Source: Bryobacterales bacterium (GTDB lineage Bacteria > Acidobacteriota > Terriglobia > Bryobacterales > Bryobacteraceae). Taken from it: a stretch of DNA of 55,203 nucleotides. Of the stretch, positions 28,750 to 36,618 are shown in pieces. Each line of letters starts with the position of its first letter. Position 1 is the first letter of the stretch. The notes under the pieces were generated by a model. The model was not told the origin of the DNA. It ran no database searches and worked only from the letters and a program-made list of their open reading frames with translations. The position numbers were made by a program, and so were the translations under genes. Location of the stretch: the NCBI GenBank assembly GCA_003167255.1, contig PMTR01000126.1, positions 1 to 55,203 of the forward strand, given 5' to 3'.

Positions 28750-28870
28750 TGTGGGGCAGCCAATCCTGGCTGCCGCCGGCTTTCAGCCGGCGCTTGCGGG
28801 GATCGAAGACTCGCGCATGTCCGAAAGAGCCGCCTGAAAAGCGGCTGCAGGCAAGATTGCATGCCCCGCA
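28750..28870. repeat. Modular inverted-repeat element, TGTGGGGCAGCC type
   Basis: A 121-base element starting TGTGGGGCAGCC and ending TGCCCCGCA (one mismatch to the inverted start). Its first 45 bases match the elements at 14855 and 50696, and its right half (AAGAGCCGCCTGAA and following) also matches 50696. It lies between two convergent genes. Confidence 0.7.
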
Positions 28871-28910
28871 AAACTGGCAGAACTTCGGCCGCACTACACT
28901 AGCCCAGGCT

Positions 28911-29504
28911 CTATTTGGTTGCGGCGATCGCCGCGGTGAGTCCCGGCGCGACGCGCACTATGGTGCCATCGAACAGAATCGGCCCGGCGGGAACGTCGCG
29001 CCATGGCGCTCCCGGTGGGTAAGCGGCAGCGAAGTCCCAGAGAATCCCCTTGCGGAAGCAGCACGCCGCGTGCAGGTTGGCAGCCTCTCCCGCTCTTCGG
29101 AGAATGGCTGCCACGGCGTGGCCGGGATCCCAGAATTGCCGGACTCTGTGATCGCTCAGCCGCGCGAGCACACTGGTGCCCGGCTTGGCCCAGTCCGTCG
29201 GCAGAATCGGCTCCCACACGGCGAACACGGTGACCACGGCTTCGGGGTGATGCTGCAGAATATTCTCGGCTGCGGAGGCCCCCCGCAGACATCCCGGTCA
29301 GGTGGGGGACATCAACAGGATCACGCGGAGACTGCCGGAGGCCCGATTGAATTCCGCCGGGAGTTCCGCCAGCGACTGGGCGTTGATCTGGAGCAGCACC
29401 GGCTGCCCCGGCGGCGTATGGCCGGTCCTCGAGAGATAGACGCCCACCGCCAGAAGAACCAGCAAGAGGATTGCAAAACTGATGGCGAAGAACCGCTTCA
29501 TCAT
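28911..29504 (-). CDS. Membrane-anchored thioredoxin-fold selenoprotein (TGA = Sec69)
   Basis: Read through one in-frame TGA (29300-29298), this frame encodes 197 residues. Residues 5-25 are a membrane anchor (FFAISFAILLLVLLAVGVYL). A thioredoxin-type first strand (LRVILLMSPT) then leads straight into U69-P-G-C72, i.e. the C-x-x-C site with selenocysteine in first place. The rest is a thioredoxin-like fold: a strand (AVVTVFAVWEPIL), a second Cys pair (C148-C149), and the cis-Pro region DVPAGPILFDGTIV followed by a C-terminal helix. The protein-like sequence continues without a break on both sides of the TGA, and a SECIS-type hairpin follows it. The start is six bases after the MerT-like gene, with AGGA before the first of two ATG codons. 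The alternative is a pseudogene with a nonsense mutation in a Cys codon; the position of the TGA and the hairpin argue against that. Confidence 0.82.
29267..29300 (-). promoter_or_regulatory. Candidate bacterial SECIS element
   Basis: In mRNA sense the UGA (29300-29298) is followed by CCGGGAUGU, then the stem CUGCGG (29288-29283), the loop GGGGCCU and CCGCAG (29275-29270). A lower helix can form between CGG and the CCG at 29269-29267, leaving GAUGU bulged, including U residues. The apical loop begins with G residues 16 bases after the UGA. A short stem, a G-rich loop start and this spacing are the known requirements for SelB-dependent bacterial SECIS elements. Confidence 0.7.
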
Positions 29505-29510
29505 TCCTGC

Positions 29511-29846
29511 CTACGGGAGCGCCGCCATAAGCCCCGCGATCTGCTGCGGAAACAGGACGGCCGCCAGCACCATGGCCGCCGACAAGGCAAACAGCACCAG
29601 GCTGAGAGGACTTTGGCGGTGACAACTTCGCTGGCCGCGATACAACTGATAGAGGCCCACACCGAGAAGAACCACGGCGGCGCCGATGAGCCACGGGCGC
29701 AGCGACGCCAGCACGGCGCTCAAACCCAGCGCGCCGATGGCTCCGGCGATGCCCAGCGGCAGACAACAGGCCAGCGCCCCAAGGGCGCTGAGTGCCGCGG
29801 CGATCGGTGCCAGACGTTCCGAGTGTCGCATTCCCTTGTTCTTCAT
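29511..29846 (-). CDS. MerT-like membrane transport protein
   Basis: A 111-residue protein with three predicted membrane helices. The first helix contains the vicinal pair C27-C28 in GALACCLPLGIAGAIGAL, and the next block LRPWLIGAAVVLLGVGLYQL leads to YRGQRSC75. This is the layout of MerT, which passes Hg2+ across the inner membrane through the helix-1 Cys pair and a later cytoplasmic Cys. No merP, merA or merR is present in the window, so mercury is not proven; other thiophilic metals or a redox role are possible. ATG 29846 is favoured; a longer reading reaches 29873. It begins 63 bases after fabI and runs into the selenoprotein gene with a 6-base gap. Confidence 0.7.
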   Translation of the reverse strand: MKNKGMRHSERLAPIAAALSALGALACCLPLGIAGAIGALGLSAVLASLRPWLIGAAVVLLGVGLYQLYRGQRSCHRQSPLSLVLFALSAAMVLAAVLFPQQIAGLMAALP

Positions 29847-29909
29847 TCTAACCAAGGATGCTGGAGAGAGCATTCAGCGGAAGCGCTGCGGAATGGCTGA
29901 CCGCTGCCC

Positions 29910-30680
29910 CTAATACGCCATCACCTGCATCCCCGCGTCCACGAACAGGATGTTTCCCGTGACGCCGCGGCCCAGGTCGCTCGCCAGGAAGACGGCGGCG
30001 TCGGCTACTTCGGCCGGATCGGTGTTGCGGCGCAGCGGAGCGCGCTCGGGAACGGTGTCCAGAATGCTTGCAAAATTCTTGATTCCGCGCGCGGAAGTGG
30101 TCTTGACGGGGCCGGCGGATATGGCATTCACGCGGATTTTCTGGGGGCCAAGGTCGCTCGCCAGATAACGCATGGCGGCTTCAAGCGAAGCTTTGGCTAC
30201 GCCCATTACGTTGTAATTCGGCATCACGCGCGTCGATCCCAGGTAGGTGAGCGTGCTGAGCGAACCGCCGGCGGTCATCAACGGCGCAGTGGCCCGCGCC
30301 ACGGCCACCAGCGAATAGGCGCTCACATCCTGCGCCAGTTGAAAGCCCCCACGGCTGGTCTCGACGAACGGGCGCATCAGGTCTTCGCGGTTGGCGAAAG
30401 CCAGGCTGTGGATGACGGCGTCGAGGGGCCGGCCCAGAGCGCGTAGCCGTTCCGTGAGCGCCACCAGCTCTTCGTCCCTGGTGACGTCGCAGGGCAGAAT
30501 CGCGGCGACGTTCATACCTTTGGACAGATCTTCAATAGCCTCTTTCTGGTGTTCGCCGAGGTAGGTCAACGCCAGGGTTGCGCCTTCGCGTGAAAATGCC
30601 TGGGCAATGGCATACGCCAGACTCCACTTGTTGGCAATACCCAGGATGAGGGCCAATTTGCCCTCCAGCAAGTTAGACAT
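29910..30680 (-). CDS. fabI: Enoyl-[acyl-carrier-protein] reductase (NADH)
   Basis: A 256-residue FabI, the last step of each fatty-acid elongation round. It has the short-chain dehydrogenase fold with the FabI-type cofactor start LALILGIANKWSLAYAIAQA, the segment LDAVIHSLAFA, and the Tyr-x6-Lys pair in MPNYNVMGVAKASLEAAMRY. RVNAISAGPVKTTSARGI is the conserved substrate-loop block. The length (about 256-262) is typical. Being the only FabI seen here, it is presumably essential and could be a triclosan-type target. The downstream MerT-like and selenoprotein genes may be read from the same transcript, although nothing in fatty-acid synthesis explains them. Confidence 0.95.
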   Translation of the reverse strand: MSNLLEGKLALILGIANKWSLAYAIAQAFSREGATLALTYLGEHQKEAIEDLSKGMNVAAILPCDVTRDEELVALTERLRALGRPLDAVIHSLAFANREDLMRPFVETSRGGFQLAQDVSAYSLVAVARATAPLMTAGGSLSTLTYLGSTRVMPNYNVMGVAKASLEAAMRYLASDLGPQKIRVNAISAGPVKTTSARGIKNFASILDTVPERAPLRRNTDPAEVADAAVFLASDLGRGVTGNILFVDAGMQVMAY

Positions 30681-34423: not shown

Positions 34424-34520
34424 GGCCACCCTTGGGCGTGTCATGTCATTTGTCTCGTTGCGGAAAGACCCTAATACTCGCCGAGCGAAGAGAAGCTACA
34501 ATGACGGTCTTGGCGGCCGC

Positions 34521-35201
34521 ATGAAGCTGCTGATCGTAGAAGACGAAGTAAAGACGGCGAGTTTCCTGAAGCGGGGCTTCAGCGAGGCGGGCTTCGTGGT
34601 GAGCGTGGCGTTTGATGGCGTCGATGGCATGCGGCAGATTCAGACTGGTGGCTTCGACCTCATCGTGCTCGACATCATGCTGCCGGGCACGGACGGCTGG
34701 CACATTTTGACGTGGTTGCGCGAAGCCGGGCTGCAGACACCGGTCCTCATCCTGACAGCGCGCGACGAGGTACGGGACCGGGTCAAGGGACTCGAACTCG
34801 GAGCCGACGACTACCTGGTGAAGCCGTTCGCCTTCTCCGAACTGCTGGCGCGCGTGCGGACCATATTGCGCAGGCCGCCGGTGCGGGAAGCGAGCACGCT
34901 CCGGGTGGCCGATCTGGAACTCGACATGGACGGCCACCGAGCTACTCGCGCGGGCCAGCGCCTCGACCTCACGGGACGGGAATTCACACTCCTGTCGCTG
35001 TTGGTGCGGCACGCCGGGGAAGTCTTGACGCGTACGCTGATCGCTCAATCCGTTTGGAACATGAACTTCGACGGGGACACCAATGTGGTCGATGTGAACT
35101 TGCGGCGCCTGCGCAGCAAGGTGGACGACCCTTTTCCCCGAAAGCTGCTGCGCACGGTTCGGGGGGTTGGATATGTTCTCGAAAACCCTGAGAGGAACTA
35201 G
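34521..35201 (+). CDS. OmpR-family response regulator, heavy-metal type
   Basis: A 226-residue response regulator. The receiver domain starts KLLIVEDEVKTASFLKRGF, has the phosphoacceptor Asp in LIVLDIMLPGTDGW and the conserved Lys in GADDYLVKPFAFSELLARV. The C-terminal winged-helix DNA-binding domain is visible as RLDLTGREFTLLSLLVRH and TNVVDVNLRRLRSKVDDPF. The close match to the CusR/CopR pattern, including the wording around KTASFLKRG, suggests a metal-responsive type, but the signal is not proven. ATG 34521 fits the domain start; an in-frame ATG at 34443 adds residues outside the fold. It overlaps the kinase gene by 29 bases and faces away from TonB receptor 1, a possible target. Confidence 0.9.
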   Translation: MKLLIVEDEVKTASFLKRGFSEAGFVVSVAFDGVDGMRQIQTGGFDLIVLDIMLPGTDGWHILTWLREAGLQTPVLILTARDEVRDRVKGLELGADDYLVKPFAFSELLARVRTILRRPPVREASTLRVADLELDMDGHRATRAGQRLDLTGREFTLLSLLVRHAGEVLTRTLIAQSVWNMNFDGDTNVVDVNLRRLRSKVDDPFPRKLLRTVRGVGYVLENPERN

Positions 35202-36618
35202 CTTGCGCGGAGGAAGGCCAGGCGGCGCGTCGCTCGCGGTGCTGCTCACCGCGTGGTACACCATGGCATCTTTCGTGGTGGTGAGCGCGGCCACCGGGTT
35301 GCTTTATCTCGGCCTGGCGAATAACCTGAGAAAGATCTCGGAGCAATCGCTGCTGGATGAGCTGGACGTGTGCCGTGCTCTGGTGCGCGAGCGGGGTGGC
35401 GATTCGCAGGCGCTGCACGAGGAAGTAGAGATCGATTCGGCGGTCCGGCGGTACCAGAAATTCTACGTCCGGGTACTCGACGCGAGCGGTATGGCGTTGT
35501 CAACCACGCCGGGGATGGACCGGGATCTGAGCTCGTCGCGCCTCGCGCAGGCGGCGGCGGGCCAGCAAGGCATCTTCTGGATCGATTCTCCCGGCGGCGC
35601 GCCGTATCGAGCCATTGTGGCTCTGCTGCCGCGCGACTCAACGCATAGGGACGTCTGGACTCTCCAGGTGGCGGTCGACCTTACACAAGAACAGGAAGTC
35701 CTTGGGAGGCAGCGAGTCTGGGTTTGGGCGGTACTGGCGGCTGCCCTCATCTTTTGTCCGGGCGTGGGTGTCGCAATCGCCCGCAGGGGCACGCGGCCGT
35801 TGCGGGAGGTCGCCGAAACCGCCCGACACATCGGCTCGAGCACGCTCAACGAGCGCATCCGGGCCGAGGGTTATCCGGTGGAAGTGGCTGTGCTGGCCGA
35901 GGCTTTCAATGCCATGCTCGAACGGCTGGAAGAATCCTTCGCCCGCCTATCCCGCTTCTCCGCGGACATCGCTCACGAACTGCGGACTCCGGTGAACAAC
36001 ATTCGCGGTGAAGCGGAAGTGGCGCTGGCGCGCACTCGTACGCCGGAGGAGTATGGCGAGGTGCTGGCCTCGTGCCTGGAGGAATCGGTGCGGCTCTCGG
36101 AACTGATCGAGTCGCTGCTTTTCTTGGCGCGGTCGGAAAGCCCGGGAGATCACCTTAAACGGACGCGGGAGGATCTCGGCCGGCTCCTGACGGATCTTCG
36201 CGACTATTACGAGGCGACGGCTACGGAGATGGGCGTGACGCTGACGGCGAGCGTCGGGGACAGCGTGTGGGGAGACGTGGACCGGGCCTTGCTCCAGCGC
36301 GCGCTCGGAAATCTGGTGTCAAACGCGCTGGCGCATTGTTCGGCGGGCGACGGCATCTGGCTCAGCGCGCGCCGGCAAGGTGGACAGACTTCGATCGAGG
36401 TTCGCGACACGGGATCGGGAATTTCCGCCGACGTTCTGCCCCGTGTCTTCGACCGTTTCTATCGAGCAGACCCGGCACGCTCACGCAACTCAGGGGGCGC
36501 CGGTTTGGGCCTGGCGATCGTTCGGCAGATCGTGTTCCTGCACGGGGGCGATGTGCGGATCTCGAGTGAGCGAGGGCGCGGTACGACCGTGTCCGTGGTC
36601 CTGCCGCAATCAACGTAG
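35173..36618 (+). CDS. Sensor histidine kinase, heavy-metal type
   Basis: A 481-residue membrane kinase partner of the regulator. It has TM1 near residue 22-45 (LLTAWYTMASFVVVSAATGL), a periplasmic sensor of about 120 residues, and TM2 (VWAVLAAALIFCPGVGVAIA). A HAMP domain follows (RRGTRPLREVAETARHIGSS), then the H-box FSADIAHELRTPVNNI. ATP-binding boxes are LGNLVSNALAHC (N box), VRDTGSGISADVLPRVFDRF (G1/F) and GGAGLGLAIVRQI (G2). The arrangement is that of CusS-type kinases. The TTG two codons upstream is an alternative start. The periplasmic domain has no obvious metal-binding Cys/His cluster. Confidence 0.9.
   Translation: MFSKTLRGTSLRGGRPGGASLAVLLTAWYTMASFVVVSAATGLLYLGLANNLRKISEQSLLDELDVCRALVRERGGDSQALHEEVEIDSAVRRYQKFYVRVLDASGMALSTTPGMDRDLSSSRLAQAAAGQQGIFWIDSPGGAPYRAIVALLPRDSTHRDVWTLQVAVDLTQEQEVLGRQRVWVWAVLAAALIFCPGVGVAIARRGTRPLREVAETARHIGSSTLNERIRAEGYPVEVAVLAEAFNAMLERLEESFARLSRFSADIAHELRTPVNNIRGEAEVALARTRTPEEYGEVLASCLEESVRLSELIESLLFLARSESPGDHLKRTREDLGRLLTDLRDYYEATATEMGVTLTASVGDSVWGDVDRALLQRALGNLVSNALAHCSAGDGIWLSARRQGGQTSIEVRDTGSGISADVLPRVFDRFYRADPARSRNSGGAGLGLAIVRQIVFLHGGDVRISSERGRGTTVSVVLPQST

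Follow-up and report, generated by a model that had tools for sequence, protein, structure and literature searches.

By 2026, 119 selenoprotein families or subfamilies had been counted, and the parts of that catalogue considered here include several thioredoxin-fold proteins with a UxxC site, i.e., Trx, thiol:disulfide interchange protein, thiol-disulfide isomerase-like protein, SaoT and the HUIPC-motif protein, as well as two entries with selenocysteine (Sec) in a MerT-type protein at a C/SxxU site, a putative mercuric transport selenoprotein (PF02411) and a MerT/CopZ fusion-like protein (NF045683) (PMC13188914). The protein described here resembles the former, as presented in those parts, in its thioredoxin fold and in having Sec at the first position of the redox pair (PMC13188914), but it matches no NCBIfam model and has a conserved core of its own (PTUxxC, VWxPxLxxD, DPRxxxFWD, WD, W and PP). 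With the MerT-type selenoproteins it has in common the occurrence of selenium in a MerT setting, although its Sec sits in a separate thioredoxin-like protein and not in the accompanying MerT-like open reading frame (ORF), which itself hits NF045683 weakly (16.7 bits, cut-off 375). Its best structural matches are membrane-anchored thioredoxins of the ResA/DsbE/TlpA type, which share its fold and, like it, possess an N-terminal anchor; unlike these, it contains Sec and has no Pfam match, and its identity to the structural matches is 4-17%.

No family in the full table of the 2022 selenoprotein catalogue (PMC9312934) could be matched to this protein, nor could any in the compared parts of the 2026 catalogue, which include much of its Table 1 (PMC13188914). 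NCBIfam 20.0 holds no model for it, and the models of that collection were the sole check on the Haft families. By these comparisons, in which entries without a model were judged by description and not by sequence, it belongs to a real and apparently uncatalogued family within a well-known kind of selenoprotein.

The window, i.e., the whole analyzed stretch of 55,203 nucleotides (contig PMTR01000126.1 of the Bryobacterales bacterium assembly GCA_003167255.1), contains two minus-strand pieces in the same phase: 68 codons that end before a TGA, and a downstream 108-aa ORF with a GTG start (29237-28911). A sequence-only reading had proposed that these are joined over a single TGA at a U-P-G-C site, which we confirm from the translation and from the retention of the TGA site in relatives: the minus strand between 29504 and 28911 has one in-frame TGA, and once that codon is translated as an amino acid, the product is 197 aa long and contains the site S-P-T-U-P-G-C. 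Features of the locus are as follows:

29504..28911, minus strand: predicted selenoprotein gene, with ATG at 29504, 197 codons and a TAG stop at 28913-28911
29300..29298, minus strand: codon 69, TGA, read as selenocysteine, at the first position of U-P-G-C
29289..29291, minus strand: Cys72, the second residue of the UxxC pair, from an alignment of 30 rows
29270..29288, minus strand: SECIS-like hairpin, with an 8-bp stem (29288-29281 with 29277-29270) and loop GGC (29280-29278), 17 nt past the TGA
29058..29063, minus strand: Cys148-Cys149 vicinal pair, from the translation
29511..29873, minus strand: ORF of a MerT-like membrane protein containing a Cys-Cys motif, immediately upstream of the selenoprotein gene (6-nt gap)

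The expectation that gene callers would return two fragments had to be corrected, as a caller might pick one of two longer ORFs that overlap the locus (28894-29766, minus strand, 290 aa; 28794-29900, plus strand, 368 aa). Elsewhere in the window, an Acido-Lenti-1 RNA (RF01687) occurs at 1210-1256 on the minus strand (53.6 bits).

Based on the frame, the conservation of the TGA, the Sec machinery, the SECIS element, purifying selection, the predicted fold and the gene pairing, we place the probability that 29504-28911 as a whole encodes a selenoprotein at about 0.9, and the narrower proposition, that Sec would be inserted at UGA-69, seems close to certain from the sequence evidence. The original proposal of a selenoprotein is thus upheld, with Sec machinery present in the genome and with TGA or Cys kept in relatives.

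Genome-scale searches covered the Acidobacteriota, such that the phylum denotes the area searched and is not a proven limit of the family. In the phylum sample, 51 of 396 genomes had a match, and the 58 matches comprised 39 with exactly one TGA, two with two TGA, one with a TGA and a TAA, and 16 that were stop-free; none had a TAG. The class sample yielded matches in 52 of 299 genomes, 55 in total, divided among 43 with exactly one TGA, one with a TAA and 11 without stops. TGA forms were carried by 38 of the 396 and 41 of the 299 genomes, respectively. Among the loci that were read, the site held U in 23 and C in seven of 30 from the phylum sample, and U in all 28 from the class sample, the latter having been found with a U-requiring motif and therefore not amounting to an independent count of Sec versus Cys. 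Where present, the TGA lay at the same site in every one of the 30 phylum and 28 class loci (L086 and L087, which repeat L014 and the window, are not counted). The second position of UxxC is Cys in 29 of 30 aligned rows and TGA in the remaining one (L031, with two TGA and an indel, which was omitted from alignments A3 and A7). This two-Sec variant, PTUPKU (UxxU), was seen in two genomes of family f29, at L031 (1402-1926, minus strand) and L135. As in the window, the protein also has a Cys-Cys pair past its midpoint in 12 of 28 class loci (13 were flagged, and L090, whose pair lies in the C-terminal tail, was excluded). Scanning contigs with the close group recovered 13 loci, 12 labelled Acidobacteria or Acidobacteriota and one labelled Candidatus Aminicenantes; the contig scan with the window protein as query found no relatives, and with L013 as query neither tblastn against plasmids gave a match nor the scan of viral contigs a relative.

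Homologues with Cys and with TGA at position 69, which the sequence-only reading had suggested looking for, both exist: a tree of 69 rows holds 55 with Sec, 11 with Cys and three with Arg at the site. This tree, which was built by a quick search and has 32 of its 66 inner branches open, needs nine changes at the site, and the starred branches by themselves force at least three for Cys. On a starred branch, the window's row is joined by two Sec rows from the same family, the nearest of which is 58% identical. Included are three TGA forms (L126-L128) that stand outside the SECIS and MerT counts; L123-L125 and L131-L133 (weak or other) were omitted, L131-L133 being weak stop-free matches that look like other thioredoxin-fold proteins of the DsbA type. 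The window's family also includes six stop-free relatives in which the site is occupied by neither Sec nor Cys; three of these (L116, L117 and L119) are in the tree. The residue is Arg in four of the six (L116-L119, from G583, G447, G471 and G628) and another in L120 (G554) and L121 (G540). In all six the protein is kept, Sec is replaced and the second Cys is lost, and it is possible that they are redox-dead paralogues or orthologues.

Loss of the active site in some relatives of the same family, together with a draft assembly of 200 contigs, would fit a TGA that arose by misassembly or as an ordinary nonsense mutation during the decay of a thioredoxin-like gene. However, an identical TGA site recurs across many families of the phylum, the stops in the 58 matches include a single TAA and not one TAG, and both the purifying selection past the TGA and the covariation of the SECIS element (see below) argue against decay, making this explanation very improbable. 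Nor were decayed frames seen in close relatives, which would have counted against a selenoprotein: frames are open with TGA or Cys, and the six exceptions are undecayed. A GTG at 29237 would allow a different outcome, in which a short membrane peptide ends at the TGA and a second protein is made by coupled translation, but the conserved stretch between TGA and GTG holds the hairpin as well as the second Cys of the active site, and the Cys relatives are one continuous frame, leaving little likelihood for two products. Near-cognate readthrough of TGA for regulation is a mechanism known elsewhere, and TGA might in this way be decoded as Trp or another standard amino acid, although nothing observed in these data favors it; stop-free relatives with an intact pair have Cys and not Trp at the site, and a SECIS element is present, such that readthrough is the least probable of these explanations. 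Pseudogene, split gene and Trp readthrough were all rejected, and we retain the insertion of Sec.

Bacterial SECIS elements (bSECIS), as modeled in the consulted part of the 2026 catalogue, have a loop of 3-9 nt with G in its first two positions, a stem of 4-16 bp, a spacing of 16-37 nt from the UGA and a minimum free energy of -7.5 or lower (PMC13188914). The window's hairpin conforms to these constraints with its 8-bp stem, GGC loop and spacing of 17, and the 48 nt from the TGA have a folding energy of -17.1 kcal/mol. When the stem must reach 6 bp, the bSECIS constraints hold for 49 of 51 TGA forms (the exceptions are L014 and L099), one of seven Cys forms and, among control stretches taken 90 nt further on, 12 of 58; requiring at least 7 bp leaves 45 of 51, one of seven and four of 58. 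The energy limit by itself did not discriminate, being passed by 51 of 51 TGA forms, seven of seven Cys forms and 53 of 58 controls. Similarly, folding energies relative to codon-preserving shuffles gave no signal (mean z of -0.43 in 23 TGA forms and -0.97 in seven Cys forms), and the minimum-energy z-score was dropped as a SECIS test because it failed to separate TGA from Cys forms, whereas position-specific pairing did.

In 50 TGA forms, the first 42 bases counted from the TGA can be aligned gap-free, and stem columns 13-20 pair with columns 24-31 in 89.5% of 400 cells, compared to at most 55.3% when the columns are slid; in the Cys forms (n = 7), 21 of 56 cells in the same columns are paired. 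Stem covariation was 0.518 against 0.229 when shuffled, and 57 stem cells had changed on both sides against 15.6, while two of five covariation measures, pairs changed on both sides (151/500) and further pair types (42/500), were not clearly above shuffles. Compensatory replacements include CAG...TCT for CGG...TCC and CGA...CTCG for CGG...TCCG. RNAalifold recovers the same stem minus its outermost pair, and a smaller set of 22 sequences gave a similar pairing result; L037 and L031 each pair in just three of eight positions at the common register. From these alignments, the predicted hairpin is kept by compensatory changes and fits the published bacterial SECIS model.

Past the TGA, comparison of the window with the two relatives nearest to it gave dN/dS values of 0.27 and 0.39 (at dS of about 1, near saturation), and elsewhere the ratio ranged from 0.10 to 0.28 in eight Sec-form pairs and was 0.07 in one Cys-form pair, one further pair being saturated. 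Judged by these ratios, the sequence 3' of the TGA is under purifying selection.

A membrane anchor and a thioredoxin fold had been suggested for the 197-residue protein, and an AlphaFold2 model (14 sequences, Cys in place of Sec; pLDDT 70.3, pTM 0.64) supports both: it predicts an N-terminal membrane helix at residues 2-26 and then a thioredoxin fold, whose core has a strand at 59-65, a helix at 70-85 and a strand at 91-97, with pLDDT below 50 at residues 28-39, 108-112, 146-155 and most of 181-197. In the model, UxxC lies at the start of the helix at 70-85, as a redox pair in a thioredoxin fold would. The top Foldseek match was a secreted mycobacterial disulfide oxidoreductase (E = 3.7e-4), and VIA-align returned DsbE-like 3gl3 (Z 9.2 over 114 residues, rmsd 3.2) and ResA 1st9 (Z 8.6). 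GPX4 is also in the VIA-align list at a similar Z; we did not adopt a peroxidase identity from this match. In profile searches, the window protein has no match at E 0.1 in Pfam or NCBIfam and does not reach the gathering cut-off of the Pfam thioredoxin families PF00085, PF13462, PF01323 and PF08534. Across 30 members, the best Pfam E-value was 0.015 (PF00085, in six of the 30), with no PF08534 row, and the NCBIfam matches were weak (pdi_dom in three members; TIGR00411, PDO_seleno_TRX and TrbB in one each; best E = 0.0052).

Because a genome without selA, selB or selC would speak against Sec insertion, we searched the window's own genome (7.35 Mb, a draft that is 98.85% complete and in which the window is contig 105) for the Sec machinery. 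All four genes were present, as the selenoprotein reading requires: selA (498.9 bits), selB (342.2 bits) and selD (367.3 bits) exceeded their curated cut-offs, and a tRNA-Sec (selC) with anticodon UCA was detected at 73.2 bits, with ARAGORN concurring. A covariance model of the hairpin, built from this same gene family, returned only the window gene at E of 1 or lower (150 of 4684 candidates were scored), and the three molybdopterin-domain genes have no stop within the matched stretch; by this search, which was not exhaustive, no second selenoprotein was found in the genome.

In the phylum sample, selA exceeded its cut-off in 250 of 396 genomes. It was found with E below 1e-100 in 35 of the 38 genomes with TGA forms (all except G104, G140 and G266), compared to selA in 215 of 358 others (Fisher p = 2.5e-5, a rough value given that the genomes are related). 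Since selA also occurs in 12 of the 13 phylum-sample genomes with stop-free matches only, Cys forms do not mark the loss of Sec machinery. Of the TGA-form genomes tested in the class, 36 of 39 had selA over the cut-off, but so did 15 of 18 tested genomes of the window's family that lack the gene, and the class sample thus adds no association between gene and selA.

The MerT-like ORF (29873-29511) directly upstream has no TGA inside and matches PF02411 at 22.3 bits (E = 1.4e-4), which is below the gathering score of 32.9, and so it is not filed as MerT. From their arrangement, the two genes likely share an operon. Just upstream of the MerT-like ORF is a gene for a FabI-like enoyl-ACP reductase (29910-30680, minus strand), which could share the transcript. 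About 5 kb from the gene pair, on the plus strand (34443-36618), the window also encodes a histidine kinase and a response regulator of the heavy-metal type (TIGR01387, 322 bits, over the cut-off).

Neighbors were searched by phmmer with the MerT-like ORF as query (E up to 1). A MerT- or MerC-like ORF adjoins or is fused to the family gene in nine of 30 phylum loci (the window, L011, L017, L020, L023, L025, L026, L032 and L037), and a MerT-like ORF does so in 23 of 28 class loci, including L096, where it is in frameshifted pieces, and L107, a fusion; within the DNA available per locus, no mer-type neighbor was found in 21 of 30 phylum and five of 28 class loci. The phmmer E-values were weak for L017, L026 and L037, which were later borne out by other evidence: beside L026 is a MerC-like ORF, beside L037 a MerC above the Pfam cut-off, and L017 fuses a MerT-like domain to a Cys form (PF02411, 31.7 bits, just below the cut-off). 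A true MerT above the PF02411 cut-off (67.7 bits) lies beside L020, and in L020, L023 and L025 the family domain is fused to HMA domains that score above the Pfam cut-off. In L107 (828-1679, minus strand; G498, of the window's own family), the MerT-like ORF continues without a frame change into the Sec TGA, and the fused domain matches MerTP_fusion at 29 bits (E = 7e-7, far below the cut-off), with no PF02411 row.

The L017 locus (G086) comes closest to a mer operon (MerR, MerT, MerP, MerA): a MerR-like gene (113.4 bits, under the cut-off) is followed by the fusion of the MerT-like domain and the Cys form, a small protein, and MerA (502.6 bits, over the cut-off). By eye, the small gene after the fusion had been taken for a heavy-metal-binding protein, an assignment dropped for want of a Pfam or NCBIfam match. 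In contrast, the window has only the MerT-like ORF, and MerA over the cut-off is absent from its genome, where the best match scores 350.4 bits against a cut-off of 454.45; the same protein was rejected as MerA, scoring 544.6 bits as a dihydrolipoyl dehydrogenase, over the cut-off of that family.

The selenoprotein could alternatively be a general periplasmic thiol-disulfide reductase of the ResA/DsbE type, or a selenol peroxidase, without a particular connection to metals, next to which the MerT-like gene lies by a coincidence of operon layout; the closest folds (DsbE and ResA, with GPX4 at a similar Z), the 21 phylum loci in which a mer-type neighbor was not found and the lack of MerA over the cut-off in the window's genome are all consistent with this, and we give it somewhat less than an even chance. 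Adjacency or fusion to a MerT-like ORF in 23 of 28 class loci, a mer-type neighbor or fusion in nine of 30 phylum loci and the HMA fusions in three argue against it. Because of gene order and fusion, we infer that the selenoprotein serves the MerT-like protein, although we regard the odds of a functional link between the two as evenly balanced, and that its substrate is a metal is a tentative proposal with the odds somewhat against it.

If Sec is inserted as proposed, SelA would make Sec-tRNA using selenophosphate supplied by SelD, and SelB, carrying the Sec-tRNA, would bind the hairpin just after UGA-69 and insert selenocysteine. By the roles established in the thioredoxin family, Sec69 would be the attacking residue of the UxxC site and Cys72 would resolve. 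Basic residues precede the N-terminal helix, and therefore, by the positive-inside rule, the membrane-anchored thioredoxin-fold domain probably faces the periplasm. There, the selenoprotein's most likely partner would be the MerT-like membrane protein of the upstream ORF, in one of two ways: the selenoprotein may keep the cysteines of the MerT-like protein reduced, or mercury or another soft metal ion may be caught on Sec/Cys and passed to the MerT-like protein, with the Cys148-Cys149 pair perhaps joining in metal capture in the window's clade. Co-transcription, topology, partner contact and substrate are what we infer from the genes. Extended to its furthest, the metal-relay version would involve a phylum-wide, undescribed family whose Sec/Cys thioredoxin, at the outer membrane face, takes up mercury or a similar ion and relays it to a MerT-like channel, either alongside MerP or as its substitute, and in which Sec serves because a selenol holds such metals more tightly than a thiol does; we consider this speculative and rather unlikely.

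The family in the window apparently adds an uncatalogued member to the 119 counted so far, and TGA-containing genes of this kind are easily missed by gene callers. It offers a concrete use for the Sec machinery in Acidobacteriota, a phylum in which selA is frequent (over the cut-off in 250 of 396 sampled genomes). In addition, gene order and fusion tie selenium to MerT-like transport, a link that is directly testable.
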